Positions 7,775 through 61,011 of a stretch of DNA of 64,000 nucleotides are shown piece after piece. The stretch comes from Nostoc calcicola FACHB-3891 (lineage in GTDB: Bacteria > Cyanobacteriota > Cyanobacteriia > Cyanobacteriales > Nostocaceae), in the NCBI RefSeq assembly GCF_014697355.1, contig NZ_JACJRQ010000016.1, positions 1-64,000 on the forward strand, given 5' to 3'. The notes under the pieces were generated by a model that worked only from the letters and a program-made list of their open reading frames with translations, had not been told where the DNA came from and did not search any database. Both the position numbers and the translations under genes were made by a program. The first letter of the stretch is position 1; each line of letters opens with the position of its first letter.

Positions 7775-8821
7775 TCAGCGAATTTTGACAAACCCAGCTT
7801 GGGTAATCAGTTCCTGCCCCTGCTCAGTCAGCAGTAAGTTGGCGTAAGCGACACCTGCTTGCTGCTCAGTCTGACCATTCTGTTTGACCACCACAAACAG
7901 ATTGCGGGTAATTGGGTACTTTCCTGATTGAAAAGCCTCAATGTTCAACTTGTTCCGTTTACCAGGACATTCAGACGGGAGGACAAATGGTTCTTGGTAG
8001 GGAGCAATGTATTGCCCTTGTTTGCGCCCCAACGGCAAGGCTCTAATGGAACATTGAGGAATCACCTCTGGGGCAGAAGCGTAGTAAATGCCACCAGGAC
8101 TACCAGCCAATTTTTGCAAGGCTTGGGTGGTTGTGGAGATAAATTCCACATCGGAGCTGAAAGCTTGACCACCCAAGATGTCTTGGACAAAAAGTTCTAC
8201 TGTGCCGCCATCAACAATCCGGCGAGAATAAGGCTTGATTGGGATATTGGAACCGCCCACCTGGCTCCAATTATTAATTTTTCCAGTGTAAATTGACTTT
8301 AACTGGTCTACCGTCAGTCCTGGGATGTTGAGGTTTGGGTTAACTGCAACTGCCAAACCATCAATTGCCACAGGAATTTGTTTCAAAGTGAATCCACGCT
8401 GTTGGGCGCGGCTAAATTCCGGATCTAAGATTGGTCGAGAAGACTGGGCAAAAGCTAATTGACCATCTATTAGCGACTGAATGCCAGTACCGGAACCAGG
8501 AGATGCATTGCTGGGTTCTACATAACGCAGCCTAAATTCTCCTCGCGCTGCTTGAATTGCTGGGTCAACTATTAATCGAATTGGTGCCCAAGATGTACTG
8601 CCTCCGTAATTGAATAATCCTGTAGGAACATCCTGGACTGAGGCGAAATTCCTGCCATTGGGTTGTCCTGATGGGGGTTTGGGTGTGTTGGTGCTACGAG
8701 AATTAATTTGATTTAGGTCAACACCAGATTTTCTGCTGAACCACCAAAAACCGCCAGCTATTAACCCAACTGTAATTAGGATAGATAAAACAAGAATAGG
8801 TATTTCATTTTTTTGGGACAT
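7775..8821 (-). CDS. Membrane-anchored PstS-like substrate-binding protein (copy A)
   Basis: PBP-like (PstS type) substrate-binding protein, 348 aa. Residues about 7-30 form an uncleaved membrane anchor (MSQKNEIPILVLSILITVGL, ending in FWWF), followed by a Pro/Asn-rich linker. The binding domain starts near 65: FNYGGSTSWAPIR, PGSGTGIQSLIDGQLAFAQS, IPGLTVDQLKSIYTGKINNW and a C-terminal ANLLLTEQGQELITQAGF. These are the features of phosphate/tungstate-type PBPs, but no Pst permease is nearby. It is strongly similar along its length to the protein at 10838-11917 and shares its anchor with the unrelated PBP at 9223-10623. A sensory rather than transport role is inferred from this and from the kinase upstream. 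Confidence 0.85.
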   Translation of the reverse strand: MSQKNEIPILVLSILITVGLIAGGFWWFSRKSGVDLNQINSRSTNTPKPPSGQPNGRNFASVQDVPTGLFNYGGSTSWAPIRLIVDPAIQAARGEFRLRYVEPSNASPGSGTGIQSLIDGQLAFAQSSRPILDPEFSRAQQRGFTLKQIPVAIDGLAVAVNPNLNIPGLTVDQLKSIYTGKINNWSQVGGSNIPIKPYSRRIVDGGTVELFVQDILGGQAFSSDVEFISTTTQALQKLAGSPGGIYYASAPEVIPQCSIRALPLGRKQGQYIAPYQEPFVLPSECPGKRNKLNIEAFQSGKYPITRNLFVVVKQNGQTEQQAGVAYANLLLTEQGQELITQAGFVKIR

Positions 8822-8997
8822 GACAAATTTTCCCCGCGTCCTTTTAATATAAATGCTTGATAGGTGCTTGCTACTTGAGATTGTATTTGGACAACGGGTA
8901 TTTTATTAGTAAATTTTAGATTTTAGATTTTGGATTTTGGATTAAAAAGACAAAAGACTAAAAAGGGCAGTCATTTGTAATTTGTCAAAAGCTACGG

Positions 8998-9025
8998 GTA
9001 GGGTAGCACAGCTGTGCTACCCTAC
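8998..9025. repeat. 28-bp perfect palindrome, REP-like (copy 3)
   Basis: Perfect palindrome with half-site GTAGGGTAGCACAG, a variant of the family at 303. It is followed 15 bp later by the older CAATAC element. Confidence 0.78.
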
Positions 9026-9040
9026 GAATTGTCTATACTC

Positions 9041-9175
9041 CAATACAGTTCAGTTAAGTATTTCTTCCTTTTCTTTGCGTTCTTCTCTGACGAGACGCTG
9101 CGCGAATGCGTCCTTTGCGGTTTGTTAAAAAAATTGACTTTTACAAAGAGTTTTAGCCTTGACTGAACCGTATTG
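9041..9175. mobile_element. CAATAC-type miniature element, older copy
   Basis: Starts CAATACAGTTCAGTTAA and ends TTGACTGAACCGTATTG, giving an imperfect terminal inverted repeat of about 15 bp. The flanks GTCTATACTC and GCCCATACCA match at only 6 of 10 positions, as expected for a decayed target duplication. The interior resembles 22688-22830 and differs from the 125-bp copies. Confidence 0.65.
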
Positions 9176-9222
9176 GCCCATACCATACGCAATTGCAAAC
9201 CGCCATAATGACGATCTTCCGA

Positions 9223-10623
9223 TTATTTCACTGGTTCAAAATCATACCCAGTACGAGAGCGAGAGCCAGGAACGATTTTTACAAGTTGGACTGGGGCAGT
9301 GCGATCGCCTGATGCTAAAAACCGAATTGTACCAGAAGCACCAGTGGCAGAAAAGTCAGAGGATAAGAGTGCTTTTTGGACTCCAGATCGTGTGGGATTG
9401 CGTTCTAAGGCGGCAATCAGAGCTACTGTAGCATCATAACTCAGGGCAGTTCGCCAACTCACGTCACCACCCCATAACTGCCGGGATTTCTGAGGAAAAT
9501 CTGACATTGGATTGCCCTCAATATGCCAGGGAACTGCTACTATCATGCCCACGGCTTGATCCCTGCCAATTTCTAAAGTTTTAACGGTGTAAATATTATC
9601 TCCCCCCAGAAGTGTTAGCTGTTTCTGGTTAACCTGAACCACCTGCAACGCTTTATCTTGAGTCTTAGTGTTGGGAACTAACATCAACACTTCTGCACCT
9701 TGTTTAATAGCTTGTTCTACACTTTTAGCAGCACTAAAATCTGCTTGGGATAAGTCAAATTCACTTGATACTTGTCCACCCTCCAGGGAAACAGATGAAA
9801 CAAATTCAGACTTTAAAGACTGGCTATAGTTACTTTCAGAATTAAAGAAAACCGCTGCATTTTTTTTCTGTAAAGTTTTCACCATGTAATTGGCTAATGT
9901 TCTGGCTGCCATGAAATCACTAGGAACTGTCCGAAAAACATAGCGGCTAAAGTTAGAAATTTTCACAGAAGTACTGGTAGGAGAAATGGCTACCAGTTCT
10001 CCGGCATTGTAGACTGTGCCTGCGGCTAAGGTGGTATCGCTGGCATTAGGACCGACTACACCGATTACTTGGGGATTGTTAACTAAGTTGGAAGCGATTT
10101 TTTGAGAGATTTCTGGATTATTATCATCATTAGCTATCCCTACTTTCAATGGCACATTCTTAATTCCTCCAGAAGTATTAATAGAATTTTGGGCTTGTGC
10201 AATGCCACGTAAAATTTCTAGGGAAGTATTAGGATCGGTACCTATTGGTACTGAGCCAACAATAGTATAGCTTTGAGAAGTGCCAATCCGGGCATTATTC
10301 AGATATATCAGTGCCTCTGGATCGTTTGGTCGCAGTTTAAGTGATGTTTGGAAACTAGCGATCGCCTTATCATAACTTTTAGCCGCGATCGCTTGTACTC
10401 CCTCTTTTTTTGCCGGATCAATTTCACCTGGAATTAAAGTTTTTTCGCCAAAACTAATGCGGTCTTCTAATGGTAGATTGCTCGCTGGTTCGGCCGTTTT
10501 TTGAGTAATAGTATTACTAATATTGATCCCATTTCTAGTAAACCACCAAATACCAGTACCGACTATTCCAACTGTCAGCAACAGAGCCAATACTAAAACT
10601 ACGGTTTCATTCTTTTGTGACAT
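9223..10623 (-). CDS. Membrane-anchored TPR plus LivJ-type substrate-binding protein
   Basis: A 466-aa protein with three parts. An N-terminal anchor (MSQKNETVVLVLALLLTVGI, ending in WWF) is nearly the same as in the two PstS-like neighbours. A TPR-like helix pair follows at about 75-115 (KSYDKAIASFQTSLKLRPND). The rest is a type-1 periplasmic-binding fold of the branched-chain amino-acid/LivJ class at about 135-466 (LKVGIANDDNNPEISQKIA-like strand, VIGVVGPNASDTTLAAG, ISPTSTSVKISNFSRYVFRT, ALSYDATVALIAAL). There are no LivHMGF transporter genes beside it. The shared anchor on a different PBP fold suggests that the three proteins are used in one membrane system. The ligand is unknown. Confidence 0.82.
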   Translation of the reverse strand: MSQKNETVVLVLALLLTVGIVGTGIWWFTRNGINISNTITQKTAEPASNLPLEDRISFGEKTLIPGEIDPAKKEGVQAIAAKSYDKAIASFQTSLKLRPNDPEALIYLNNARIGTSQSYTIVGSVPIGTDPNTSLEILRGIAQAQNSINTSGGIKNVPLKVGIANDDNNPEISQKIASNLVNNPQVIGVVGPNASDTTLAAGTVYNAGELVAISPTSTSVKISNFSRYVFRTVPSDFMAARTLANYMVKTLQKKNAAVFFNSESNYSQSLKSEFVSSVSLEGGQVSSEFDLSQADFSAAKSVEQAIKQGAEVLMLVPNTKTQDKALQVVQVNQKQLTLLGGDNIYTVKTLEIGRDQAVGMIVAVPWHIEGNPMSDFPQKSRQLWGGDVSWRTALSYDATVALIAALERNPTRSGVQKALLSSDFSATGASGTIRFLASGDRTAPVQLVKIVPGSRSRTGYDFEPVK

Positions 10624-10837
10624 GAATAAAATTTAATAAAATAAAAATGTTTATTATTTAATTTTTTTAAAGAATTCAGGAGTCATAATTCAGAATAATT
10701 ATATAATTAAGCGTACTATATATATCTTATTTTTTAATTTTCTTAAAATTACCAAGCTTAGTATCTAAGTTTTATTAAATTTTGACTACTGACTCCTTAC
10801 TGAATTCTGAATTCTGAATTCTGACTCCTGACAATAA

Positions 10838-11917
10838 TTATTTGATTCTGACAAATCCAGCCTTTTCAATAAATTCTTGACCTTGAGGTGTCAGCAGCCA
10901 ATTTCCATAAGCTTCTCCAGCTTGCTGATCTGTTTGATTATTCTGTTTAACGATGACAAATAAATTCCGAGTAATGGGATATTCACCACTACGAAAAGCC
11001 TGACTATTTAACTGATTACGTTTATTAGGACATGCCGATGGAGAGACAAAAGGTTCTTGATAGGGAGGTACAAATTTATCGCTTGTGCGTGCTATTGGTA
11101 GGGACTTAATCATACACTGGGGTACAATTTCTGGGGCAGAACCATAGTAAATTCCACCAGGATTTGCAGATAATTTTCGCAGGGCTTCAGTGGTGGTGTC
11201 AATATAGTTAACGTTGACACCAAAATCCTCTTTATTGAGAACATTCTCTACAAAAAACTCTACTGTCCCTCCAGCTTCTTTGCTGCGAGTGTAGACTGTA
11301 ATTGGTAAATTTGTTCCACCTACTTCTTGCCAGTTAGTAATTTTACCTGTATAAATATCTTTCAGTTGAGTGACAGTTAAACCAGGAATATTGAGATTGT
11401 GATTAACTGCGATCGCAATTCCATCAATCGCCACCGGAATTTCTTTTAAACTAAATCCTTTTTGTTGAGCTTCTATATTTTCTTGGGCTTTGACTGAGCG
11501 AGAAGATTGGGAAAAAGCTAGTTGATTAGCTATTAACATTTTAATCCCAGTGCCAGATCCTGGTTTTTCATTAATTGGTTGAATGTAACGTAAACTAAAT
11601 TGAGGGCATAGCCTTAGCAATTGGGAATCTACATCTTTACGAATAGGCGCCCAGGTTGTGCTACCACCATAATTGAATGTCCCCTGTGGGAGGTTTGGCA
11701 CCTCACATTTGCTATTAACAGGAGTGGGATTGCTAGTATTGCCATTCATCGACTGGTTCGGAACAGAAATAGGATTGCGCTGATTGCTATTCGCCGATTG
11801 ATTACCAATATTTAATTGCGCCCACCGTTCCATAAAAAACCATAAGCCACCAAAGATTAAACCAATGGTGATGATAACGGCTAAGAAAAGACTAAGCGTT
11901 TCGTTTTTCTGAGACAT
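10838..11917 (-). CDS. Membrane-anchored PstS-like substrate-binding protein (copy B)
   Basis: A 359-aa paralog of the protein at 7775-8821. It has an N-terminal anchor (MSQKNETLSLFLAVIITIGL, ending in GGLWFF), a long Asn/Ser/Pro linker to about residue 75, then a PstS-type binding domain (FNYGGSTTWAPIR, PGSGTGIKMLIANQLAFSQS, IPGLTVTQLKDIYTGKITNW, TPQGQEFIEKAGFVRIK). Its start lies only 26 bp after the stop of the upstream Ser/Thr kinase gene on the same strand, so the two are very probably co-transcribed. Transport partners are absent. A ligand-sensing subunit for the kinase is a plausible inference. Confidence 0.85.
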   Translation of the reverse strand: MSQKNETLSLFLAVIITIGLIFGGLWFFMERWAQLNIGNQSANSNQRNPISVPNQSMNGNTSNPTPVNSKCEVPNLPQGTFNYGGSTTWAPIRKDVDSQLLRLCPQFSLRYIQPINEKPGSGTGIKMLIANQLAFSQSSRSVKAQENIEAQQKGFSLKEIPVAIDGIAIAVNHNLNIPGLTVTQLKDIYTGKITNWQEVGGTNLPITVYTRSKEAGGTVEFFVENVLNKEDFGVNVNYIDTTTEALRKLSANPGGIYYGSAPEIVPQCMIKSLPIARTSDKFVPPYQEPFVSPSACPNKRNQLNSQAFRSGEYPITRNLFVIVKQNNQTDQQAGEAYGNWLLTPQGQEFIEKAGFVRIK

Positions 11918-11943
11918 AGATAGGTGTTAGCACCAGGAGTTTT

Positions 11944-13341
11944 TTAAAGTATGAGAGATAGTAATTTATAAACTAGTCGAAATATCGCTGTCAGGGAAAT
12001 AGCTACTAAGCTGCCTGCAACTGCTAAAACAACTACTGACTGAATATCAAGACTTCCTTGTAAAAAGGGTAGAAAAAAAATAATAGCAAAAGTAATTGCT
12101 GGAATAATTAATAAATCGAACTTTTCAATCCACCGTCTGGTTTGGGCAAATATCAGTATCCCCAAAATTAGGGATGCAACAGTTAAAGTGATGATTGGTG
12201 ATTTTACTAGACTGAAGAGGGCGATCGCTATCAATGCACCCTCAAATCCACTGAAAGCGGCTCCCCCCAATAATTCCAATGTCGAAAACGTTGGTTTAGT
12301 TGCTGGAGTACGGCGAACAGGAGGACTAGAACTTTGAGGTGATTGTGGCGGAAGTGTTGCGGAGGGGGAATTAATTTGTGTCGCGGCTAGAGGCGGTGAG
12401 TTAAGTGCATCTAGGACTTCTTGGGCTGATTGGAAACGTTGATTTGCAGCAGGTAGAAGCATGTTGTCTAAAATGCTAGCAAGGCGAGGGTTGACATTCA
12501 CTTGCATTCGCCATTTCCACTGGTTGCTATAGGCATCAAACAATTGAGTTGCTTCTTTATCCGTCAATAAGGTAATCACAGTTACAGCCAAGGCGTATAA
12601 ATCCGTAGATGGAAATACTTGACCACCAGTCATTTGTTCCGGTGGTGCAAATCCCATAGAATAAATTCCTGTGGAAGAAGCTGCACCTGATGCAACATTT
12701 GCTACTTGCTTGACTGCGCCAAAATCTAGGAGGAAGAGTTTGCCATCACGACGACGCATGATATTAGAAGGTTTGATATCTCTGTGGATGATGCCTTTTT
12801 CATGGACAAACTTGAGTACCTTCAAGATTTCTTGCAACAGTTCTAACACTTGTTGTTCAGAAAACTTTCCCTGTTGAGCTAATTCTTCTTCTAAGTTTTG
12901 CCCATCAATATATTCTTGTACTAAGTAAAAAAATTGGTCTTGCTGTCCTGGTTGCAAGCTATTAACTATTACTGGAAAAAAGGCAAATAAATCAGGAATT
13001 TGCTCGTGTTCGTTGCCTATTTGGGCTAAAACTTCTGCCTCTCTCTCAAACATTATCTGTGCTTGGTGCAATTGAGTCGAGGTTAAATTTCCCGCTGGTT
13101 GAAACTGCTTAACTACGCATTGACGCATTCCAGGAATTCGGCGATCGCGTGCCAAAAATGCTGCTCCAAATCCACCTCTACCCAACAACTTGATGGTCAC
13201 ATATCGCCCATCAAGTAACAGTGGCATACCACAACTAGTACAGTACTTTTGCTGCGTTGTTTTCAGGGTTGTAATATCATCTAAATCGGCAAAATAGTTT
13301 TGTGGGCGTGGGCAACGTGGGCGAGTACAGTAAACTTCCAT
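11944..13341 (-). CDS. Zinc-ribbon Ser/Thr protein kinase with C-terminal membrane segments
   Basis: Eukaryote-type Ser/Thr kinase, 465 aa. An N-terminal zinc ribbon is formed by four cysteines (C5, C10, C34, C37: CTRPRC and CTSC). The kinase domain spans about 48-320, with a glycine loop LGRGGFGAAFLA, VVK lysine, HRDIKPSN near 187, LLDFGAVKQV near 205 and FAPPEQ; all catalytic residues are present. A Pro/Ser-rich linker follows, then a hydrophobic C-terminus (about 360-465) with three to four predicted membrane spans and no extracytoplasmic sensor domain. It is the first gene of a minus-strand run whose next three genes encode membrane-anchored binding proteins, so they may supply the missing sensor. 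Targets are unknown. Confidence 0.88.
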   Translation of the reverse strand: MEVYCTRPRCPRPQNYFADLDDITTLKTTQQKYCTSCGMPLLLDGRYVTIKLLGRGGFGAAFLARDRRIPGMRQCVVKQFQPAGNLTSTQLHQAQIMFEREAEVLAQIGNEHEQIPDLFAFFPVIVNSLQPGQQDQFFYLVQEYIDGQNLEEELAQQGKFSEQQVLELLQEILKVLKFVHEKGIIHRDIKPSNIMRRRDGKLFLLDFGAVKQVANVASGAASSTGIYSMGFAPPEQMTGGQVFPSTDLYALAVTVITLLTDKEATQLFDAYSNQWKWRMQVNVNPRLASILDNMLLPAANQRFQSAQEVLDALNSPPLAATQINSPSATLPPQSPQSSSPPVRRTPATKPTFSTLELLGGAAFSGFEGALIAIALFSLVKSPIITLTVASLILGILIFAQTRRWIEKFDLLIIPAITFAIIFFLPFLQGSLDIQSVVVLAVAGSLVAISLTAIFRLVYKLLSLIL

Positions 13342-13653: not shown

Positions 13654-14667
13654 TTAGTCTTCGCCGCCAGAGGTGGGCGTTGCTATATCCAATGTAGTTA
13701 GGACTATGTTTTTTTGTGTCAATGTTAACACATCTTGGTTCCATCCAGGGTTAGCAAACTGGGGCAAAATTTCTTGACTAAAGGCTTCTGCGGCTTTGGA
13801 TCTATAGCGATTGGGATTAAAAATCAGCCATAGCGTCCGTTTGACGACGACGCTTTCAATGTCGGCACAGTGGAGAACGCCCATTTGTAGTTCCTTGGCG
13901 ATCGCGCTAGTGGAGACAAATGCAGCTCCCAAACCAGATTGCACAGCATTTTTAATTGCTTCAATGGAATTTAGTTCCATTTCAACTTTAAAACGCCTGG
14001 TATCAATTTCACAACGTGCTAAAACTTGGTCAATTACTTTGCGGATTGTCGATTGGGAATCTAAAGCAATGAATTGTAATTTATATAGGTCTTCTTTTTG
14101 GATTTTTTCAAGTTTGGCTAAGGGATGAAAGACGGGTAAAATCAGTGCTAGTTCATCTTCAGCGTAAGGAATAACTTCCAAAGATTCTGCTAGTTCACTG
14201 GGAATCTCACCACCGATGATGGCGAGATCGACTTGTCCGTTAGCGACACTCCAAGCAGTGCGTCGAGTTGAGTGGACGTGCAATTGCACTGCCACATCTG
14301 GATATCTTTGTCGGAACATACCGATCATTCTGGGCAAAAGATAAGTGCCAGTGGTTTGAGAAGCACCGACAATTAAAGTACCGCCTTGGAGATTTTGCAA
14401 ATCCTCGATGGCGCGGCAGGTTTCCTGACACAAACTGAGGATTTTTTCGCCGTAGCTTAAGAGTAGATGCCCAGCTTCGGTTAATTGGGCGCGTCGTCCT
14501 CCACGATCGAATAAAGGAACATCGAGCTGCCGTTCGAGATTTTGCACTTGCAAGCTGACGGCAGGTTGGGAGACATAAAGACTATCAGCAGCGCGCTTGA
14601 AGCTCCCTTCTACAGCGATCGCTTTGAGGATACGTAACTGATCTAAAGTGAAAGGAAGGTCAGACAT
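13654..14667 (-). CDS. rbcR: LysR-family regulator, RbcR/Ycf30 type
   Basis: LysR-type regulator (337 aa from the preferred start). It has an N-terminal winged helix ([20 protein letters not shown], then [18 protein letters not shown]) and a linker helix, followed by a two-lobed effector domain ([47 protein letters not shown]). This pattern matches the cyanobacterial RbcR / chloroplast Ycf30 group that activates RuBisCO operon transcription; CmpR and NdhR are more distant relatives. The frame extends to 14709, but [14 protein letters not shown] at 14667 is the family start. It is divergent from the NnrU-family gene, and the 213-bp shared upstream region could carry an autoregulatory LysR site. 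It precedes ndhF, as remembered for other Nostoc-type genomes. Confidence 0.88.
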
Positions 14668-14880
14668 AAGGCTCAACCCACAAACTTTGAAAGGAGCGGA
14701 TGTAAGCAAGAAATCACCTTTGCCAGCAATGGGCTAGGTATGATTTGTTGCATCTTAAACTTTAAGGCTTGACTCGAAAAAGACAGTAGCACAACATCTT
14801 GACTAAAGTCCCCTTTTGAATACTTTGTGGTATTGGTTGTACTGAATTCAGTTTTCTTTAAATTACTTCACCCGTGTATT

Positions 14881-45233: not shown

Positions 45234-45554
45234 CTAGACCGCTGAACAAGTTTAGCTTCGCATAAAAATCCGAATAGGATTTTATGTATGTGGGCGGGCA
45301 ATCCTTTTTTATTTATAAACCATAACTTATGGTGTCGGGTTTAGCACCTAAACCACAAAAAAATATTGTATGAAGGACTCACCTAAGAATTCAGGAGTCA
45401 GAATTCAGGAGCCAGAATAGTTAAATAATTACAATAACTTATGATGAATGAACATACTAATCATACTAAACTCCTTACAAATTCTGACTTTTGAGTTCTG
45501 AGTTCTGAATTCTTGCAGACTGACCTAAAATTTTTTCAAAGCAACTTCAGACTT
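45234..45554. other. Intergenic region between divergent kinase and permease genes
   Basis: Contains AATTCAGGAGTCAGAATTCA and GAGTTCTGAGTTCTGAATTC inverted pairs (about 45388 and 45492). The frame of the permease remains open back to 45513 through this repeat, which is why the ATG at 45555 is preferred. Confidence 0.5.
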
Positions 45555-46421
45555 ATGGATACACAATTCGCCCAACTAATCGTCAATGGAATTGCAGTGG
45601 GAAGCATTATTGCTTTAGCCGCAGTTGGACTCACACTTACCTATGGAATTTTACGTCTATCTAATTTTGCTCATGGTGACTTTCTGACTTTAGGAGCTTA
45701 TCTCACTTGGCTGATCGACTCCATTGGAGTCAATATTTGGCTGTCCACGATCCTCGCAGCAGTGGGAACGGTAGCAGCAATGTTGTTATCAGAAAAGTTA
45801 CTCTGGTCAAGGATGCGCTTTATTCGTGCTACCTCCACTACGCTGATTATCATTTCTATCGGACTTGCCTTATTTCTTCGCAATGGAATTATTTTTATCT
45901 GGGGTGGCAAAAATCAAAATTACGATTTACCTGTTACCCCGGCTTTAGATATCTTCGGCTTGAAGGTGCCGCAAAATCAATTATTGGTATTGGGGTTGGC
46001 AGTATTAGCAATTTTGGGGCTGCACTATCTCCTGCAAAACACCAAAATTGGTAAAGCTATGCGAGCAGTCGCCGACGATCTAGACTTAGCTAGGGTTTCT
46101 GGTATCAATGTTGACCGAGTAATTTTCTGGACTTGGCTAATTGCTGGCACTCTTACATCCTTGGGCGGAAGTATGTACGGGTTGATTACAGCCGTGCGCC
46201 CGAATATGGGATGGTTCTTAATTTTACCATTATTTGCCTCAGTGATTTTGGGAGGGATTGGTAACCCCTACGGTGCGATCGCCGCAGCTTTTATCATTGG
46301 CATTGTCCAAGAAATTAGCACTCCTTGGCTGGGTTCTCAATATAAACAAGGCGTGGCACTGTTGATTATGATTTTGGTGCTGCTCATTCGTCCCAAAGGT
46401 TTATTCAAAGGAACTATTTGA
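45555..46421 (+). CDS. Branched-chain/neutral amino-acid ABC transporter permease (LivH type)
   Basis: LivH-type inner-membrane permease (288 aa from ATG 45555, MDTQFAQLIVNGIAVGS), about eight helices. Family segments: ALAAVGLTLTYGILRLSNFA followed by HGDFLTLGAYLT, the cytoplasmic loop KAMRAVADDLDLARVSGINV (contact site for the ATPase), and ILGGIGNPYGAIAAAFIIGI. In heterocystous cyanobacteria the same type (NatD) belongs to the N-I neutral amino-acid uptake system. The genes for the second permease, ATPases and binding protein are not here, so it is an orphan unless encoded elsewhere. It is convergent with psaX. Confidence 0.88.
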   Translation: MDTQFAQLIVNGIAVGSIIALAAVGLTLTYGILRLSNFAHGDFLTLGAYLTWLIDSIGVNIWLSTILAAVGTVAAMLLSEKLLWSRMRFIRATSTTLIIISIGLALFLRNGIIFIWGGKNQNYDLPVTPALDIFGLKVPQNQLLVLGLAVLAILGLHYLLQNTKIGKAMRAVADDLDLARVSGINVDRVIFWTWLIAGTLTSLGGSMYGLITAVRPNMGWFLILPLFASVILGGIGNPYGAIAAAFIIGIVQEISTPWLGSQYKQGVALLIMILVLLIRPKGLFKGTI

Positions 46422-49307: not shown

Positions 49308-52300
49308 ATGTCAGTAGTACTAGATACACTATATGCGTTTCCTGGCTATCGCATCACTGAGCAAATTTACTCAGGCAGCAAAACCTTAGTTTATCGCGGT
49401 ATTAGGGAACAAGACCAAAAATTAGTCGTCCTCAAATTGATGCGAAATGAATATCCTACATTCGGAGAAATTGCCCAGTTTCGCAATCAATATATCATTA
49501 CTAAAAACCTAGATATTCCTGGTATAGTCAAAACGTATAGCTTAGATAATTACCGTAACAGCTACATCCTAGTGATGGAAGATTTTGGTGGCATTTGCCT
49601 ACAAAAATGGCGCCTGGAAGACAAGGATAAGAAAGAAAATAAGATTTTGCTAAATGAGTTTTTCAACATTGCTATTAAAATTGCTTCGATTCTTGAAGGG
49701 CTACACGGCAATCGCATTATTCACAAAGATATCAAACCTGCCAATATTCTGATTAACCCAACCACCAATGAGATAAAAATCATCGATTTTAGTATTGCCA
49801 CACTCCTGCCCAGAGAAATTCAATTTCTCACAAATCCCAATGTTTTAGAAGGCACTCTGGCTTATATTTCGCCAGAACAAACTGGCAGGATGAACCGAGG
49901 TATTGACTACCGCACTGATTTTTATTCTCTTGGTGTCACCTTCTTTGAACTCCTTACCGGACAGTTACCCTTCACCAGCAAAGATCCGATAGAGTTAGTT
50001 TACTCTCACATTGCCAAACAACCGCTAAAAGCCAGCCGGATTAACTCCAATATTCCCGCAGTTCTGTCTGATATTATCAGCAAACTGATGGCAAAAAATG
50101 CCGAAGACCGCTATCAAAGTGTCTTGGGGTTAAAGCATGATTTGGAAGTGTGTCAAAAGCAGTGGCAAGAGACAGGAAATATTCCATCTTTTAAATTAGG
50201 CGATCGCGACATCTCAGACCGTTTTGTAATCCCCGAAAAACTCTATGGTCGGCAACATGAAGTTGAAACTCTACTTGCTGCTTTTGAGCGAGTTGCTAAT
50301 CCCCTTGAATCTGATGCCAGATCCTATTCTGCTGGTTCTGCGTTGGTGCAGCCTCCCGTAGGAAAGGAATATAACTCAGCAGAACTGACACCACTTGCTT
50401 TGGGACAGGAAACCTCTTCAACCCAGTGGCTCCCCAGACGAGTGTCTGCCCCTAGACAGGGGGGAGTGAGAGGCGTAGAAATGATATTAGTTGCGGGTTT
50501 CTCTGGTATTGGTAAAACTGCCGTAGTCAACGAAGTCCACAAACCCATCGTCCGCCAGCGGAGTTACTTTATCAAAGGAAAATTCGATCAGTTTCAACGT
50601 GACATTCCCTTATCAGGATTGGTGCAAGCTTTTCGAGATTTAATCGGGCAACTCCTTTCAGAAACTGATGCCCAAATTCACCAATGGAAAGCTAAGATTC
50701 TCCGGGAATTGGGTACACAAACTCAGGTAATTATTGATGTAATTCCTGAACTCGAACAGATTATTGGCAAGCAGTCTCAGGTTACAGAACTCCGTGGAAG
50801 TGCTGCCCAAAATCGTTTTAATTTATTGTTCAAAAAATTTATTCAAATCTTCACTACTAAAGAACATCCCCTCGTTATCTTTCTCGATGACCTACAATGG
50901 GCAGATACCGCTTCTTTGAGATTAATTCAGTTATTAATGTGTGAAAGTAGCTTGTCTGATATTTCAGAAGAAACAGACGAAATAACTGAAATTAAGAAAG
51001 GTTTATTATTAATTGGTTCCTATCGAGATAATGAAATTTCAAAAGCACATCCGCTTTATTTAACATTACAAGAGATTGAACAAGCAGGCGCAACTATTAG
51101 TACTATTACCCTAGCACCCTTAAATCAGGGTGATTTGAATCATTTAATTGCTGATACTCTTCACTGTCCGGAATTAGTTGCTGTTCCTCTGACTCAGATG
51201 GTGTTTGCCAAAACTAAAGGCAACCCATTCTTTTTTATTCAATTCCTCAAGTCTTTATACGATGAAGGGCTAATTGTATTAAACTTTGATATTGGTTATT
51301 GGCAGTATGATATTTGTAAAATAAAAGAATTAGTTTTGACGGATGATGTGGTAGAGTTTATCGCAATTCAAATAGAGAAGCTACCAATAAATACCCAAAA
51401 AGTATTAAAACTTGCTGCTTGTATCGGTAACCAATTTGACTTAAAAAGTTTAGCGATCGTTCACGAAAAATCTGTAGTAGATACAGCATCAGACTTGTGG
51501 CAAGCATTACTTGATGGACTAATTTTACCACAAAGTGAAATTTACAACATTTTCCCAGCAGATAATACGAATCAAGAGTTAATTGTTCAGGGAATAGAAT
51601 CTACACAGTTTGCAAGTATTAATTTACAAATACCTAAATATAAATTCGTACATGACCGGGTACAGCAAGCCGCTTATTCTTTAATACCCGAAGAACAAAA
51701 AAAGCCAATTCACTTAAAAATTGGGCTACTGTTATTGAGTAATACTCCAGTTGCAGAACAGGAAGAAAGGATTTTTGAGCTTGTTAATCAGTTTAATATT
51801 GCAGTAGAATTCATATCCCATCAAGCTAAGCGAAATGAACTAGCCCAAATGAATTTAATTGCTGGACGTAAAGCTTTAGCATCAACAGCTTATCCAACTG
51901 CGGTTAAATATTTAAGTACCGGCATCCAACTATTGGCAGCTGATAGTTGGGAAACAAAACATCATCTCACCTTAGCTTTATATGAGACTGCTACAGAAGC
52001 AGCATATTTAGCTGGCAACTTTGAACAGATGGAGCAATTAGCAGAAATGGTGCTGGTACGTAAACCACTGCTAGAAAAAATAAAAGTTTATGAAGTTAAA
52101 ATTCAAGCTTATGGAGCGCAGAACCAAGCACTGGAAGCTGTAAATACTGGACTCAATTTTTTGAAACTTTTGGGAGTGGAATTTCCTCAACATCCAAGTG
52201 AATCTGATATTCAGTTAGCAATGGCAGAATTAGCATCAAATCTCAATGGGAGGCATATTCAGGACTTAATTAATCTGCCAGATATGATAGATCTCCAGCA

Positions 52301-55157
52301 AGTAGCAGCTATGCGTATTTTATCGACTATCGCTGCTATTAGTTATTTAGTTACGCCGCAACTTTTTCCGCTAATTTTTCTGAAACAAATCAACATATCA
52401 GTTAAATATGGTAATACTTCCCTGTCTGCTTCTGCTTATGTGAATTATGGTTTAGTACTCACTGGATTGGTGGGAGATATTGAGTCTGCCTATCAATTTG
52501 GCAAACTGGGTATAACTTTAGTGGATAAGTTGAATGCTAAAGAAGTTAAAGCTAAAATTATTCTCGCATTTAATACAACTATTAGGCATTGGAAGGAACA
52601 TACTAGGCAAATATTAAAACCTTTAATGGAGGGTTATTATATTGCAATAGAAACAGGAGATTTAGAATACGCAGCTTATTGTCTTAATGCCTATTCCTAT
52701 TCTGCATATTTTGTTGGTCGGGAACTGACAGAACTAGAGCGAGAGATGGCAACCTACAGTCATGCGATCGCTCAAATTAAGCAAAAAATCGTATTTAACT
52801 GGATTAGTATCCACCGACAAAGTATTTTAAATTTGCTAGGAAATGTATCAAACCCTTGTTATTTAACTGGTGAAGCCTACAATGAAGAAAAAATGCTGTC
52901 GCATTACCTTGAAACCAATGATGTAATGGGAATTTTCTATTTTTATGTGAGCAAAGTACATCTTTGCTACCTATTTGAAAAATACCATTTAGCTTTGGAA
53001 AATGCTACATCAGCAGAAAAATATTTAGATGGTGGAAGAGGGCAGTTAGTTACTCCTTTGTTGTATTTTTATGATTCACTTACACGACTAGCATTATATC
53101 CTAATGTATCCATTTTTGAACAAAACTCTATGATGGATAAGGTTCAAGTGAATCAAGAGAAAATGCACCAGTGGACACATCATGCGCCTATGAATTATTT
53201 ACATAAATATTATCTTGTAGAGGCTGAACGTTGTCGGATTGGTGGTCAATATCTCGATGCAATAGAATTCTACGATCGCGCTATTTCCCTAGCTAAAGAA
53301 CATGAGTATCTGAATGAAGAAGCCCTGGCTCAAGAACTCACCGGCAAATTTTATCTAGGATGGGGCAAACATAAGATTGCCCAAACCTACTTCACAGATG
53401 CTTACTATAGCTATGTTCGCTGGGGAGCAGTAGCCAAAGTTGACGATTTGGTAAAACGCTATCCCCTATTACTCGCTCCGATATTTCAGCAAGAAAAACT
53501 AAAACTGAATATCCACTCCAGCCAAGAAAGTACTTCTTTTAATAAAATATCTCTATCTACTTTAAGCGAACAACAAACTGTAATTGGCTCAAAGACAAGT
53601 ATTTCTGATTCTCTGGATTTAGCTACATTTATTAAAGCATCTCAAGCGCTCTCTGGGGAAATAGAGCTTGAGGGATTGATTTCTACTTTAATGGAAGTCG
53701 CGATCGAAAATGCAGGAGCTTCTAAATGTGCTTTGATTTTAAATGAAGATGATAGCTTATCATTAACTGTGACGGCAGTTTGTTCCAATTCAAATTTTGA
53801 ACATACATACACAGAGTTTCCATCAATTTCTCTAGAATCAAGTTATGATGTTCCCATTACTTTGATTAACTACGTTAAACGTTCCACAGAAATATTAGTT
53901 ATTGATGACGCAATGGCTGTTTCATTTTTAGCATCTGACAGCTATATTATCTGCGAGGAACCCAAGAGTTTATTGTGTATACCTATTATTAATCAAGGGA
54001 ATTTGATTGGTATTATTTATCTAGAAAACAATTTAACGACCGGAGCATTTACACGCGATCGCGTTGAAGTTCTAAAACTACTCACTACCCAAGCAGCAAT
54101 ATCCCTAAAGAACGCTATTCTCTACAAAAATTTGGCACAAGCTAAGGAAAGCTTGGAGAAATACAACCATACGCTAGAGAAAAAAGTCAACGAAAGAACC
54201 CAGGAACTGAACGACAAAAATGAAAGATTACAGCAAGCTATACAGGAATTAAAACGTACTCAAATTCAATTAATCCAAAGTGAAAAAATGTCTTCCTTAG
54301 GGCAAATGGTGGCGGGAATTGCCCATGAAATTAATAATCCCATCAATTTTATTCATGGTAATATTGCTCACGCTAGTGAGTATGTGCAGGATTTGCTGGA
54401 TTTGATAGCTGTTTATCAGCAAGAATACTCTGATTCTTCGTCTGTGGTTGAGGATAAATCTCAGGAAATCGACATAGATTTTCTAGCAGAAGACTTGCCA
54501 AAAGTTCTAGATTCAATGAAGATTGGAAGTTCACGCATTCGCAATATTGTTTTGGGCTTACGCAACTTTTCTCGCCTGGATGAATATGAGATGAAGCCTG
54601 TAGATATTCATGAAGGGATAGATAACACCTTAATGATTTTGCAGCATCGACTTAAGAAAAATAACGATTACCCGGAAATTCAAATCATTAAAGAATACGG
54701 AAATATCCCAGAAGTTACTTGTTACGCAGGCCAGCTTAATCAGGTGTTTATGAATATTTTAAGTAATGCGATCGATGCTTTAGAAGAGTCATTTGTCATT
54801 GGTCATCAGTCATTGATAAATGACCAACAAATAAATTACACCATAGATTTGCAACTATCAGAAGGTCAAGAAAAAATAAAAAATCCTCAAGCAAAAATTC
54901 GCATATTTACTGAATTAACAGATTCTAATACGGTGATGATTAGGATTGCTGATAACGGTTGTGGTATGACAGAACCTGTGCGACAGAAAATTTTTGACCC
55001 ATTTTTTACCACTAAGCCAGTAGGAAGTGGTACAGGCTTGGGGTTGTCAATTAGCTATCAGATTATCGTGGACAAACATAAGGGTAGTTTAACCTGTCAT
55101 TCCATATTAGGAGAAGGGACTGAGTTCGTGATTGAGATACCAATGCAACAAGGATAA
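49308..55157 (+). CDS. Giant Ser/Thr kinase - AAA - GAF - histidine kinase (HstK-type)
   Basis: A 1949-aa multidomain signalling protein. Order: Ser/Thr kinase domain about 12-275 ([19 protein letters not shown] in place of [16 protein letters not shown]); AAA/NACHT-like predicted ATPase about 315-800 ([15 protein letters not shown] near 395; [20 protein letters not shown]); helical TPR-like region about 820-1390; GAF domain about 1430-1610; coiled coil ([20 protein letters not shown]); HisKA-like domain with [12 protein letters not shown] near 1670; HATPase to the end ([21 protein letters not shown]). It is the dual Ser/Thr-His kinase type known from Nostoc. The catalytic Asp of HKD is present. 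Two repeat-derived inserts are visible at 50302-50480 and 54787-54835. The input signal is unknown. Confidence 0.93.
50302..50480. repeat. Repeat-derived in-frame insert in the giant kinase
   Basis: About 55-60 codons (from [13 protein letters not shown] to [10 protein letters not shown]) separate the usual [16 protein letters not shown] from [13 protein letters not shown], which are normally close together in this family. The DNA is GC-richer than its surroundings and carries GGTGCAGCCTCCCGTAGG and CAGTGGCTCCCCAGACG, like repeat pieces elsewhere (CAGTGGCTCCTCCGGAC at 16231). Confidence 0.6.
54787..54835. repeat. GTCATTGGTCAT-type repeat inside the HATPase domain
   Basis: TCATTTGTCATTGGTCATCA and its inverse AAATGACCAAC are the same kind of sequence as the short repeats between genes (for example 36705-36735). 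In frame they encode [13 protein letters not shown] in a loop directly after NAIDALEES. Confidence 0.75.
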
Positions 55158-55340
55158 TTGGGCATGGGAAGAGGACACGGAGAAAGTCTTTCCCCTTCCA
55201 ATTCTCTTTGTCCCCTTGTTTTTCTCATCTACAGGACTTAGGCAAGATATGACCGAAAGCCTTATTCAAGCGTTGCGGTAATTCATCAATTACCGCTACT
55301 TTCGTTATCTTTTGCGTAAGTCTCGATCTAGCTAAAACAA

Positions 55341-55387
55341 AAATTCATCCCACGCTGTTTTACGGGTCAGACATGGGATGAATTTTT
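55341..55387. terminator. Terminator at the convergent gene ends
   Basis: Stem AAATTCATCCCA / TGGGATGAATTT with a 21-base loop, then TT. On the plus strand it terminates the giant kinase. The arm is A-rich on the other side, so it could also work for the P450 transcript. Confidence 0.7.
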
Positions 55388-55406
55388 GGGTGGTAAAATC
55401 CCACCC

Positions 55407-55569
55407 CAATACTTGTCGGGTTTTGGGGAAAAGGGGAAGGTGGGGTCCCCTCTGGGGATAAGGGGCGGGGGAAAGGGGAAAGAAAAAACCTTTAACCTTT
55501 AACCTTTACCCTTTAACCTTTTCCCAAAACCAAATTCCGAGTTGAAAATGCACAAAGCGAGCAGTATTG
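55407..55569. mobile_element. 163-bp CAATAC miniature element, copy 3
   Basis: Begins CAATACTTGTCGGG and ends GCGAGCAGTATTG. Perfect 10-bp direct repeats AATCCCACCC flank it (55397-55406 and 55570-55579). The interior has G/A-rich and C/T-rich arms (CCTTTAACCTTTAACC) that fold back. It is closely related to 62512-62637. Confidence 0.9.
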
Positions 55570-55587
55570 AATCCCACCCCATCTCTA

Positions 55588-56964
55588 TTAGACAGATGCC
55601 AAAGACTCTTGACGCACACAGCGTCGTCCTGTAATTACCATCTTGACTCCACGGGAAGGCGCAAGGGTAAAGCCTCGACGTTGAGGCCGTTCTATCCGCC
55701 GATCGACTAGCGCCAGCTGATAGTTTGACAACACGGTTGCTAATACTAACTTCATTTGAAACATAGCCAAAGCCTCGCCAATACAACGGCGCACGCCACC
55801 ACCAAAGGGCAGAAATTCATAGGGAGAAAATTGGCGTTCTAAAAAGCGCTGTGGTTGAAACTCCTGGGGTTGGGGATATAAATCCTCACGGTGATGGGTG
55901 AGATAAATACTCGGAAGCACTATAGTCCCAGGTTCTAAACAATGTCCCAAGAGTTGAGCAGGTTCTTGCACTACTCTGGGGAAAGAGGATATTAGAAGAG
56001 GGTAAATTCGCAACGTTTCGTTACAAACAGCTGTCAGATATGGTAGTCGGTAAAAGCTCATAGGATCTGGGGAATCGCCGAGAGTGTCTAGTTCTTCGAG
56101 CAGTTTTTCACGAACTAGGGGCTTTTGATGAATCCAATACAATCCCCAAGCGATCGCTGTTGCTGTAGTTTCATATCCTCCAACCATTAAGGTCATCAAC
56201 TGATCGCGCAACTCTCGATCTGTCATTGATTGACCAGTCTCATCCCTTGCCAACATCAGCATAGATAAGATATCGATACGTTTTGGATCGCGTTGCTGTT
56301 TGCGTTCAGTAATTTCACTGTAGATCAATTCATCAATTTGCTGGCGATCGCGGAGAAATTTTCCCCAAGGACTCCAAGCTCCTAAATCCTTTTGCAAGAA
56401 TGAGAAAAACAATAAACTAGAACTCAAAGGAGACCGAAAAAGATCTAACATCTGCAACAATAGATCCTTAAGTTTTTGAAATTTTTCTCCTTCATTCAAA
56501 CCAAAAACAACCTGTAAAATGACTTCCAGGTTTATTTCTTGTGTTAAGTTTCGAGCCAAAAACTGCTGATTTAGTGGTAACTGATTAAAAATTTTTGTAC
56601 ACAGGCTAGAGATTAGTTGACCATAAACTCGCATTCGCTCTCCATGAAAAGCAGGCATCAGAAGTTGTCGCTGTTGTTTGTGATGAGTACCCTCCAGTAA
56701 GGGAAGTGAATATTCTCCTACTAAGGGTTCTCCAATTTTATTTATGTTGCCAACGGCTACAAACTTTTTTCTATCGTTGCCTAGAATTTCCTGGATTGCC
56801 TGGGGATGGCTGACAAATACCACAGTACCGCCAAAACCAACTATCCTACCAGTGAAAATGTCAGGATATTGCTGAGCCGCTTTTTCCATATACCCGATAG
56901 GATCGGTAACCCATTGTAGCTTTTGTAGCGTGGAAGGAGTTTTAATAAGATTAGGTAATGCCAT
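55588..56964 (-). CDS. Cytochrome P450, CYP110-like
   Basis: Soluble cytochrome P450 (458 aa from ATG 56964, MALPNLIKTPSTLQ; an ATG at 57012 adds 16 residues and would overlap the upstream gene). The heme-binding loop FLPFGGGVRRCIGEAL has the axial Cys near 394. The I-helix is MVGGYETTATAIAWGLYW, the ExxR motif NETLRIYP, and the PERF-like region PQRF. It resembles the CYP110 family of heterocystous cyanobacteria. It lies 28 bp downstream of the terpene synthase on the same strand, so it most likely oxidises that enzyme's sesquiterpene product. Redox partners are not encoded nearby. Confidence 0.92.
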   Translation of the reverse strand: MALPNLIKTPSTLQKLQWVTDPIGYMEKAAQQYPDIFTGRIVGFGGTVVFVSHPQAIQEILGNDRKKFVAVGNINKIGEPLVGEYSLPLLEGTHHKQQRQLLMPAFHGERMRVYGQLISSLCTKIFNQLPLNQQFLARNLTQEINLEVILQVVFGLNEGEKFQKLKDLLLQMLDLFRSPLSSSLLFFSFLQKDLGAWSPWGKFLRDRQQIDELIYSEITERKQQRDPKRIDILSMLMLARDETGQSMTDRELRDQLMTLMVGGYETTATAIAWGLYWIHQKPLVREKLLEELDTLGDSPDPMSFYRLPYLTAVCNETLRIYPLLISSFPRVVQEPAQLLGHCLEPGTIVLPSIYLTHHREDLYPQPQEFQPQRFLERQFSPYEFLPFGGGVRRCIGEALAMFQMKLVLATVLSNYQLALVDRRIERPQRRGFTLAPSRGVKMVITGRRCVRQESLASV

Positions 56965-56992
56965 GATTTTTTTTAATTTGATTAAATCTAGC

Positions 56993-57979
56993 TCAAGAAT
57001 TCGCCATCTCATAATTTTGTGTTAGCTCTAGCCTTTCTACACTGTGATAGCGACTTGTCTGCGAATACCAATCATTGTTGCTACGTATCCAGGCGTGCAT
57101 TCCTAATATATATTTTGCAACTTCAGCATCGACTTCTTTTCCAAATGTGGGAATAGATGTTTCTAAATCCATCATTCTTTGTACGGCACTATTGTGCATT
57201 TCTACTACACCCTGAATTGCCTGATTTAGAGAAATCTGGTGTTGATAGTGCAGGACAAATACTAAATTATGAACATCACCACTGGATATTTCTCTAGATG
57301 CAGAAAAGATATCATTACAACAGGCAATAATATGTCCTGTGAGAAATTGCAATTTGAGAATTGTTTCATCTTTTCGTAAAAAATCGGGAATGGTCAAATT
57401 ATGGCAAAATTCAGTCAATGTCAAAAAAGCATCCACACCTATACTTGATTTACGTGTCATGATATAGGCATCCACATCTGGTACAATTCCCTGTGCGCGG
57501 ATGGTTGCTTCATCAGTACATGCCTCTAACCATTCCCCAAAGCTAGTAATGAAATTACGAAACCATGTTAAGCTTCGTCTTGCAAGAATCCTTTCTCTTA
57601 GGTTACTTAAGGCAAGAACAAGGGGTGGATCTTCGCTTGTAACTTCTACCCCATTTAAGATTTCCAGATATCTCTGATTATGGATCTTTAAAACTTCAGG
57701 TTTTTTTCCTAAATCTGACAAATCACATTGATCGTCCCAAAGAAACACCCAGCTTAACCAATCATTTGCAATCTTAAGTTCTTCAAGATCGCTGTCAGGA
57801 TAGGCAGATGCAGCTAATAAAAAGAAATTAGACTTACAAAATCGCTTATAAGTTGATTCATTGGCCAAGAGGTTGAAGCGAAGCACCCATTCAATACCGA
57901 ACTCTTGCAAAACATCAACATGCCGATTGATTTGCATTGCAAATGGACAATACAAAGCAGGAAAAATTAATTCTTTCAT
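56993..57979 (-). CDS. Class I terpene synthase (sesquiterpene cyclase-like)
   Basis: Bacterial terpene cyclase, 328 aa, which ionises a prenyl diphosphate (probably farnesyl) and cyclises it. The Asp-rich metal motif is D82-D83-Q-C-D86 in FLWDDQCDLSD. The second metal motif is N222-D223-IFS-ASR-E230 (NDIFSASRE). The pyrophosphate-sensing Arg-Tyr pair appears as SQTSRYH near the C-terminus. The length and fold match bacterial single-domain cyclases. In Nostoc, germacrene A and selinene-type synthases are paired with CYP110 in the same way, so a similar product is likely. First gene of a two-gene operon. Confidence 0.92.
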   Translation of the reverse strand: MKELIFPALYCPFAMQINRHVDVLQEFGIEWVLRFNLLANESTYKRFCKSNFFLLAASAYPDSDLEELKIANDWLSWVFLWDDQCDLSDLGKKPEVLKIHNQRYLEILNGVEVTSEDPPLVLALSNLRERILARRSLTWFRNFITSFGEWLEACTDEATIRAQGIVPDVDAYIMTRKSSIGVDAFLTLTEFCHNLTIPDFLRKDETILKLQFLTGHIIACCNDIFSASREISSGDVHNLVFVLHYQHQISLNQAIQGVVEMHNSAVQRMMDLETSIPTFGKEVDAEVAKYILGMHAWIRSNNDWYSQTSRYHSVERLELTQNYEMANS

Positions 57980-58604
57980 AGAAAGTCTGTTAGTTAAGTG
58001 TAATGAATAAACATCTGCGATCGGACCACAAAGGCAATAGCCTTTTTCAGAGTCTATGGCAGAGTTTTGCGAAAAAAGTTACTGTAACACCACGTTTTTC
58101 CAAGTATGGAACTTCTACTGACCTCGCTTGTTGCGGTGCGTAAAGGTATTTGAATATTTCAAAACTTACTTGGCTATTGTTCAATATTTTTTAAAAAAAC
58201 ATAACCGTAATTACCTGTAATTATATTTTTTCGATAATAATAGTTACATTTTGTTTATATTCATTATAAATACTATTGACGAATTATAAAAATTAACTTA
58301 TGGCATGGAAAATATTTTTTTGAGCTAGCGCTACTTCTATAAAAAGACAAGGGTAATAACGAATAATTTCAGAAAATAATCTATTAAATTTTGGTAAGAA
58401 CAATAGTTTTGTCTGTGGCGATCGCCCCGTAAAAAGCTATGGGCAATTTGGTATGAAAATGTTGCTGTTATCAGACTTTTGGGAACTATAGAATTGTCAG
58501 ATTGTAAATTTATCAGTCAGTCCATTAAGAAAATAGAGGTGACTTGGTTACAATTCGAGAGTCAATGACAAACAATTAACAAGGAGTAAAATTAATTTAA
58601 ATAC
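57980..58604. other. AT-rich intergenic region between terpene synthase and response-regulator kinase
   Basis: A divergent promoter region of 625 bp, very AT-rich (many A/T runs at 58180-58320), with one GCGATCGC near 58419. No repeats or small genes were recognised. Its length suggests regulated transcription of the terpene operon. Confidence 0.5.
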
Positions 58605-59927: not shown

Positions 59928-60385
59928 AAGAGCAAAATTACAGTAAAATTCAGAATTCAGACTGAAAACAAATTTGATATCTGCCTTTGTGACTGAGTTT
60001 TTGTACTTCAATTTCCTGAAATTTACTGTATATCAAGTAATTTATTTTTGGATCGATACCGCAAGTTGATATCAGGAAGAAAATTATGGTTATCAATCGC
60101 TAGTTAAATGATGATGTCAAAAAATAGAAGAAATCGAGAGTATATTCATTAATGACAAAAGCTTGAGGTTTAATGATAATTATTGCCATTCATCAGACGA
60201 GCAAGTATTATATTTTCTCAAGAAAGGGATTATATCTGTTATCGTTTGCATGGTACAGGTTCACAACTGTGGGGTTCTAGGAAGTTGCTGCGGTTTACAC
60301 AATTTTAAACTGGCATAAGTGGTTACTTTACAGGTATTTTTGGGAACTCTATAACTGTAGTTCTAAAGCTGTGTCTTTAAAGTCT
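59928..60385. other. Intergenic region
   Basis: AT-rich, with AAAATTCAGAATTCAG-type repeat sequence just after the upstream stop and an AT-rich leader before the next gene. No gene was recognised. Confidence 0.45.
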
Positions 60386-60928
60386 ATGACAAATTACCTT
60401 AATCATTCTGTAAGTAGCCTGAATCTTCCCTTTGAACGGGATATATTTTTACGTACATTAATCAGAGAATTATCCGGTACATTGCAGGATGTAGTTGGCT
60501 TAGAAGAAGCCTCTGGATTTATTAGCGTAGTTGGTGAAAGGATGGGTAGGCAAATTAACCAAGATTACAAATCTGCCTTGGAAGTCTCAAATCTTTCCCG
60601 AAAGCAAGTAGCTGATGTGTTGGTTGATTTAAAAAAACGAATTCAAGGCGATTTTTATATGATTGAGGAGGATGATGAAAAAATTGTTTTTGGTAACCGC
60701 ATTTGCCCATTTGCCGAAAAAGTCTTGAATCGCCCTGCTATGTGTATGATGACTTCAAACGTCTTTGGAACGATCGCAGCTAATAATCTAGGGTATGCGA
60801 AAGTGGAATTACAAGATACCATAGCACAGGGTGCTTCTGAATGCAGAGTTATTGTTTACTTAAAACTGACTCAAGAGGCAGAAGATGCAGAAGGTCGAGA
60901 ATACTTTAAAGGACTAGAATCTATTTAA
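60386..60928 (+). CDS. Methanogen output domain 1 (MetOD1)-like protein
   Basis: A 180-aa protein from ATG 60386 ([20 protein letters not shown]; a GTG at 60371 adds five residues). It matches the compact MetOD1-type domain found as output of signalling proteins: [40 protein letters not shown] with two cysteines, and [14 protein letters not shown] with a third. The cysteines could bind a metal or act in redox sensing (inference). It lies 83 bp upstream of the PAS-histidine kinase gene on the same strand, which suggests co-transcription and a common pathway. Confidence 0.78.
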
Positions 60929-61011
60929 ACTCTTCAGCACTAAACCAAACCCAGCATACTAGCTCTGGTGCGGATTGGTAAAGTATAGTCCAACTTGAAA
61001 TTGCAAGCCTC

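Follow-up and report, generated by a model that had tools for sequence, protein, structure and literature searches.

Why should binding proteins of unrelated folds, encoded directly behind a Ser/Thr kinase and without adjoining importer genes, start with the same membrane helix? This question is raised by a locus of Nostoc calcicola FACHB-3891. It lies in a stretch of 64,000 nucleotides, called the window below, with which contig C8 of a 9.03-Mb genome begins. Four minus-strand open reading frames (ORFs; 13341-7775) encode, in this order, the kinase, a PstS-like protein (protein A), a TPR + LivJ-like protein, and a second PstS-like protein (protein B). The evidence discussed here suggests that the window encodes, in linked form, a receptor system that is widespread among cyanobacteria and consists of a kinase with docked, interchangeable, anchored sensors under the control of their ligands. 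We consider this reading, taken as a whole, somewhat better than an even bet.

The kinase locus

The locus had been described before from the bare sequence as a zinc-ribbon kinase gene lying 26 bp from genes for two PstS-type proteins and one TPR/LivJ-type protein, a description that is borne out by the ORFs and by Pfam and NCBIfam. The gap of 26 bp separates the kinase gene from that of protein A, and the other two gaps measure 214 and 401 bp. The kinase is of the Hanks type with a 4-Cys prefix, as it matches NF045510 above the cut-off and continues with a Pkinase domain containing the catalytic residues. In an alignment of 45 sequences, the window kinase included, the catalytic HRDIK..N and DFG columns are invariant, and the prefix cysteines C5, C10, C34, and C37 are nearly so. 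The AlphaFold model places C-terminal helices at residues 354-379, 382-401, 409-423/425-428, and 433-464, preceded by a low-confidence linker (residues 319-351). Since the loops of this four-helix domain are very short, the kinase appears to have no sensor of its own. No match to the domain was listed in Pfam or NCBIfam, and all 50 Foldseek hits listed for the kinase model were kinases, which does not inform on the fold of the membrane part.

The two PstS-like proteins match PBP_like_2 with 95 and 114 bits (Pfam cut-off 27) and stay below the cut-offs of the PstS models, with 142 and 150 bits for TIGR02136 (cut-off 206.6) and less than 50 bits for TIGR00975 (cut-off 205). The fold was checked by structure for protein A among the two PstS-like proteins. 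Its AlphaFold model consists of a helix (residues 4-35), a low-confidence linker (residues 36-67), and a PstS fold, and Foldseek matched it best to 9l8j, i.e., Sll0540 (5e-21), and also to 4gd5, which contains bound phosphate. The TPR part of the LivJ-like protein is weak in Pfam (19.6 bits against a cut-off of 26.8), and its residues 83-111 match a designed TPR protein (E 5.9e-6). In the ORF lists of the window, judged by eye, no permease or ATPase gene adjoins the binding-protein genes. The locus thus lacks the permease and ATPase genes that accompany the binding-protein gene in a Pst or Liv ABC importer. The earlier claim that such genes are missing holds for the adjoining genes, but a lone LivH-type permease gene is located at window positions 45513-46421 (+), without adjoining partner genes (by eye).

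Table 1. Positions of the kinase, the anchored binding proteins, and the conserved upstream gene in the window
Feature	Position	Strand	Evidence or remark
Ser/Thr kinase, 465 aa	11944..13341	-	Pkinase 3.8e-34 (Pfam)
4-Cys prefix (zinc-ribbon-like) of the kinase	13219..13332	-	NF045510 E 9.7e-13 (own-genome search); 47.4 bits, cut-off 24
C-terminal four-helix membrane domain of the kinase, residues 354-465, proposed docking part	11947..12282	-	AlphaFold helices
PstS-like binding protein A, 359 aa	10838..11917	-	PBP_like_2 1.5e-32
Anchor of protein A	11819..11917	-	Profile A1 E 1.3e-16; itself one of the 55 profile rows
TPR + LivJ-like binding protein, 466 aa	9223..10623	-	Peripla_BP_6 1.3e-31
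Anchor of the LivJ-type protein	10525..10623	-	Profile A1 E 1.4e-17; itself a profile row
PstS-like binding protein B, 348 aa	7775..8821	-	PBP_like_2 8.7e-27
Anchor of protein B	8723..8821	-	Profile A1 E 1.8e-17; itself a profile row
LysR-type regulator gene	13654..14709	-	RbcR-like by eye; conserved upstream neighbor of the kinase

One anchor helix on different binding proteins

All three binding proteins of the window start with MSQKNE, followed by a hydrophobic helix with a W/F end. These elements are indeed common to the three, but to call their first 30 residues almost the same, as the sequence-only reading did, was generous: pairwise, 15, 17, and 18 of 34 positions (44-53%) are identical. 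When anchors were compared with kinase membrane segments as a control, identity averaged 20%, with a 99th percentile of 32% (best of eight offsets). A profile of 34 columns (A1) was made from 55 anchors located beside the kinase, partly from the same genomes that were later searched with it. In its consensus, MSQKNETxxLVLALLITxGLxGGGxWWF, M1 and L10 are invariant, and N5, E6, T17, and W26 are conserved in at least 90%.

Across the order, mean anchor identity is 0.575 among PstS-type proteins (30 anchors), 0.531 among LivJ-type proteins (25 anchors), and 0.537 between the two types when taken from different loci (1084 pairs). The corresponding values for PstS- and LivJ-type proteins are 0.25 and 0.15 in the linker and 0.62 and 0.60 in the rest of the protein. 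At the 14 loci with both types, the PstS and LivJ anchors are not more alike than those of permuted loci (1031 of 2000 permutations). This absence of a within-locus excess speaks against gene conversion among the anchors, and a shared outside constraint would, as judged from these sequence comparisons, fit their likeness better than recent copying. In the 30 loci classified among the matches listed, the anchor is found on PstS-like or LivJ-like proteins only; one further case is an NMT1-like + OmpA protein (L312).

The possibility of a chance start motif was considered and rejected. A DNA pattern for MSQKN has 14 hits in the genome of N. calcicola, and the reversed-pattern control has 10. Four of the MSQKN hits start proteins of at least 290 residues, i.e., the three window proteins and a protein at C8:139388, the helix of which is of another type (PPPIVFI) and does not match A1. 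The profile additionally matches a LivJ-type protein on contig C45 of the same genome. The PPPIVFI helix represents a second class of anchors, common to one PstS-like and two TPR-LivJ proteins (L008, L362, and L364). At L362, a gene for a 4-Cys kinase with a hydrophobic C-terminus divergently adjoins the PPPIVFI-anchored gene.

Joint presence and joint loss of kinase and anchor

The distribution of the kinase was studied in 120 genomes drawn evenly across the order, which were searched with the four-helix domain to avoid query bias. The domain was found in 93 genomes and in 62 of the 70 genera, including Synechocystis, at E ≤0.1, where a few matches are weak, and the anchor was found with A1 in 89 genomes. 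A first kinase search with a single sequence (E ≤1e-4) yielded 82 genomes with both, three with the kinase only, seven with the anchor only, and 28 with neither. Of the seven anchor-only genomes, four (G036, G072, G078, and G089) proved to contain the kinase when a 54-row kinase profile was used. The final table thus counts 86 genomes with both, three with the kinase only, three with the anchor only, and 28 with neither (Fisher p 1e-20, kinship ignored). As to the remaining anchor-only genomes, G030 is 61% complete, the anchor of G050 is weak (E 9e-5), and the anchored genes of G071 begin 253 bases from a contig end. A search with the kinase profile in 23 of the 28 double-negative genomes (21 plus G038 and G083) revealed no positives. 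In a sample of the phylum (146 genomes, partly overlapping with the order sample), 40 genomes have both, four the kinase only, two the anchor only, and 100 neither. Of the genomes new in this sample, 15 have both, three the kinase only (weakly in G165), and two the anchor only (G199 and G222, both with weak anchors).

Both double-positive and double-negative genomes are present in eight of 33 families (114 of the 120 genomes carry a family label), which indicates repeated joint loss. Such loss is specific, since 12 double-negative genomes keep 2-14 other matches to the 4-Cys prefix. Anchors at loci without such kinases had been named beforehand as evidence that would count against a kinase partner; such loci do exist, yet nearly all of the genomes concerned have the kinase elsewhere, so that the objection carries half its weight. 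In G199 (L360), the kinase ORF comprises 194 residues and stops short of the membrane domain, and the GGGFWWF end has been lost from the anchor encoded by the next gene. This locus, with a truncated kinase beside a PstS-like gene with an eroded anchor, possibly represents a stage of decay.

Conservation of the gene neighborhood

Of the 84 other genomes with a match at E ≤1e-4, 80 were inspected for the gene neighborhood of the best hit (G029, G031, G053, and G059 were left out), and 78 of these contain a kinase ORF that includes the four-helix domain. A binding-protein gene is present on the same strand within the next five ORFs at 43 of these 78 kinase loci, in shuffled order, and a LysR gene lies at most two ORFs upstream of the kinase at 65. 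From a contig scan for relatives, 80 loci were kept, and at 29 of them the kinase gene is followed by at least one gene for an anchored protein, again in varied order. These 29 loci stem from Nostoc, Desmonostoc, Brasilonema, Trichocoleus, Rivularia, Calothrix, and Pelatocladus. Some of the kinase-free cyanobacterial loci among the 80 are contig fragments, fusions, or unlinked copies, and the lower-scoring loci mostly encode PstS-like proteins of other phyla.

Fusions of binding-protein domains to kinases and other effectors

In N. calcicola itself, Pfam identified PstS- or LivJ-like C-terminal domains together with CHAT (L003), caspase (L007), and AAA_35 (L057) domains, and such a domain is combined with TPRs in L054, which is STAND ATPase-like by eye. 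Fusions of a kinase with Peripla_BP_6 (LivJ-type) are encoded on contigs C73 and C56 (L053 and L051, respectively). The C56 fusion scores below the Pfam cut-off for this domain (28.9 against 31.7 bits) and matches the LivJ protein of the window at E 2e-43. A kinase fused to a PstS-like domain is found in L091 (Prochloraceae). Contig C56 also contains a second split pair, i.e., a gene for a kinase of 458 residues followed by a LivJ-type gene for 486 residues. Besides the window kinase, this is the sole protein found in the genome to match the four-helix profile (E 6.4e-15), and the same pair is present in G214. Together, the synteny at 43 of 78 loci, the near-obligate co-occurrence irrespective of linkage, an anchor common to different folds that shows no sign of concerted evolution, and the kinase-LivJ fusions support the idea, already put forward in the sequence-only reading, that the anchors have a common membrane partner and that this partner is the kinase.

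Several related arrangements were encountered. With L005 and L006 (by eye) added to L003, L007, L051, L053, L054, and L057, binding-protein folds appear to be used generally beside effector domains. Locus L047 (C8:132000-151000) contains two CHAT-PstS genes, of which Pfam recognized one and the other was read by eye; at a distance of a few kb, an MSQKNA-anchored PstS-like gene adjoins a PspA-like gene (by eye). In G187, which has no four-helix kinase, a LivJ-type gene is directly followed by a gene for a kinase of 349 residues with a hydrophobic C-terminus (L365). A 4-Cys kinase-like protein of 712 residues in L049 and L139 has no Pfam kinase match and a C-terminal PstS-like domain, and may be a pseudokinase receptor; in L049, its gene is followed by a zinc-ribbon + FHA gene (by eye).

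The kinase of Synechocystis

In the Synechocystis genomes G036 and G078, the four-helix kinase consists of 495 residues and is encoded beside a purC-like gene (by eye); in G078, a gene for an MsmX-type ATPase (by eye) is also located nearby. By eye, this neighborhood resembles slr1224-slr1227, with spkF as slr1225, and SpkF rather than SpkC is presumably the orthologue. Synechocystis thus has the four-helix kinase in common with the window, whereas its anchored binding proteins are unlinked. In G036, the anchored proteins encoded away from the kinase are of the LivJ type (L297) and PstS-like (L298), and the latter matches Sll0540 (9l8j) at E 1.4e-141. The solved construct of Sll0540, titled a putative phosphate-binding protein, begins behind the anchor. 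Both SpkF and SpkC were reported to be integral in the plasma membrane (PMC11863333). In the available part of this 2025 review, no sensor is named for SpkF, and the terms “periplasmic” and “substrate-binding” are absent from the main text.

A proposed receptor with interchangeable sensors and its alternatives

In the proposed mechanism, the zinc-ribbon-prefixed Ser/Thr kinase would be held in the membrane through its four-helix C-terminal domain. Binding proteins of unrelated folds (PstS-like, TPR + LivJ-like and, rarely, NMT1-like + OmpA) would bear one N-terminal helix, which presumably stays uncleaved and leaves the binding domain outside. This helix would dock physically into the four-helix domain, and the activity of the kinase may then be altered, be it up or down, by the ligand state of the outer domain. 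By analogy with the known families, the ligands could be an anion such as phosphate for the PstS-type and amino-acid-like compounds for the LivJ-type proteins. Such a receptor may be built on a shared subunit, with one kinase served by changing sensors of at least two, probably three, folds via one helix, so that new inputs would be acquired by placing the helix on a new domain, linked or unlinked. To this extended form we give an even chance.

Several observations weigh against these proposals. At 35 of the 78 kinase loci, three of them at contig ends, no binding-protein gene is found within the next five ORFs. The two wider gaps in the window could house separate promoters, and a promoter/terminator scan gave results at chance level only. 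As A1 was made from kinase-adjacent anchors, it favors co-occurrence in the order sample, a bias that does not extend to the new genomes of the phylum sample. In five genomes (G008, G013, G018, G139, and G189), the kinase domain is accompanied by no anchor that the profile recognizes. In partial Mantel tests over 38 loci, the correlation between anchor and four-helix domain was weak, with r 0.22 given LysR (16 of 1000 permutations) and r 0.18 given LysR and the kinase domain (56 of 1000 permutations). Finally, the membrane helix of the L051 fusion is, by eye, of another type; hence, the fusions back the coupling of kinase and sensor, not this particular helix.

The helix could instead be a signal for membrane sorting or quality control (e.g., plasma membrane vs. 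thylakoid) that some common targeting factor recognizes, with the linkage to the kinase resulting from lifestyle or an old operon. The anchors at kinase-free loci in many genomes would suit such a signal, the conservation of the helix alone names no partner, and the joint absence in 28 of the 120 genomes could be a matter of lifestyle. Nevertheless, a general signal should outlast the loss of one kinase, yet both vanish together within families, and the cargo of the anchor is narrow, consisting of PstS- and LivJ-like proteins and the single NMT1-like + OmpA protein described above. In the kinase-free genomes G056 and G019, the remaining TPR-LivJ proteins carry other N-termini, which also argues against a sorting signal, but these proteins are probably paralogues, since G001, which does have the kinase, possesses a G056-like protein besides the anchored one. 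We regard a sorting signal as unlikely.

There is still less reason to assume that the orphan binding proteins feed importers encoded elsewhere (Pst, Nat) and that they or the importer are phosphorylated or regulated by the kinase instead of regulating it, a possibility we rate as slim. Sll0540 of Synechocystis is listed as a potential binding protein for phosphate uptake (PMC3610870). The scores of proteins A and B with the PstS models are also good, though under the family cut-offs, but permease or ATPase genes do not adjoin, and the fusions of the same domains to kinases, CHAT, caspase, and AAA domains in N. calcicola point to sensing. Moreover, the binding proteins of such importers are normally free or lipid-anchored, not fixed by a helix, which counts against a role in import. 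Lastly, a kinase that senses otherwise, e.g., redox via its 4-Cys prefix, with the anchored proteins merely scaffolding or localizing it, is very improbable: the near-invariant cysteines would fit, and many further matches to the prefix exist in the same genomes, but a prefix common to so many kinases leaves the anchored partners unexplained, and outer domains conserved at 0.60-0.62 across the order would be needless for scaffolding.

Relation to known systems

The receptor proposed here finds its closest analogue in the GlnH-GlnX-PknG system of Corynebacterium and Mycobacterium, where an extracytoplasmic binding protein controls a Ser/Thr kinase via a four-helix membrane part (PMC9769921; PMC6069109). 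In both cases, binding protein and kinase are encoded together, in one putative operon there, and in the window and at 43 of 78 loci here. There, a cytosolic kinase (PknG) is combined with a separate transducer, GlnX, that carries two periplasmic domains of ~150 residues, whereas the four helices described here are part of the kinase itself and are joined by short loops. The several folds on one helical anchor also contrast with GlnH, which is a single lipoprotein. Also, kinases of the PknG type are cytosolic with an FHA substrate of the OdhI/GarA type, whereas a membrane kinase is predicted here. In group II ECF transporters, interchangeable substrate-binding membrane subunits use one module via a conserved helix motif; these systems function in transport with an ATPase module and without a kinase, and homology is not claimed. 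Binding-protein domains are likewise present in signaling proteins in the case of the cyanobacterial orthocaspases, which are fused to Peripla_BP_6 (eight) or PBP-like_2 (one), but there they are covalently connected to a protease, and no shared anchor is described in the available part of the source (PMC8283722).

A description of a kinase with anchored sensors was not found in the open-access literature searched.

Other genes in the window

The LysR gene upstream of the kinase is not claimed as part of the proposed sensing step. Among the 25 LysR models listed for its product, none scores above its own cut-off. Elsewhere in the window, a terpene-synthase-like gene is followed by a cytochrome P450 gene at 55588-57979 (-; by eye), possibly constituting a small terpene cluster. 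At 49308-62376 (+), a hybrid protein of 1949 residues with Ser/Thr kinase, ATPase, GAF, and histidine kinase parts is encoded (by eye), and downstream of its gene lie a response-regulator/histidine kinase gene and another histidine kinase gene (by eye).

Significance

To our knowledge, little is known about the activators of cyanobacterial Ser/Thr kinases. The analysis names candidate sensors, a candidate docking helix, and a candidate docking domain for a kinase whose membrane domain occurs in 62 of the 70 sampled genera of the order (E ≤0.1), and genes of the model strain Synechocystis with which the idea can be probed already exist. If the proposal is correct, proteins regarded as orphan binding proteins of ABC transporters would have to be reinterpreted as receptors. 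The system would then offer a compact case of sensors plugged in via a membrane helix and could tell what switches such kinases on.

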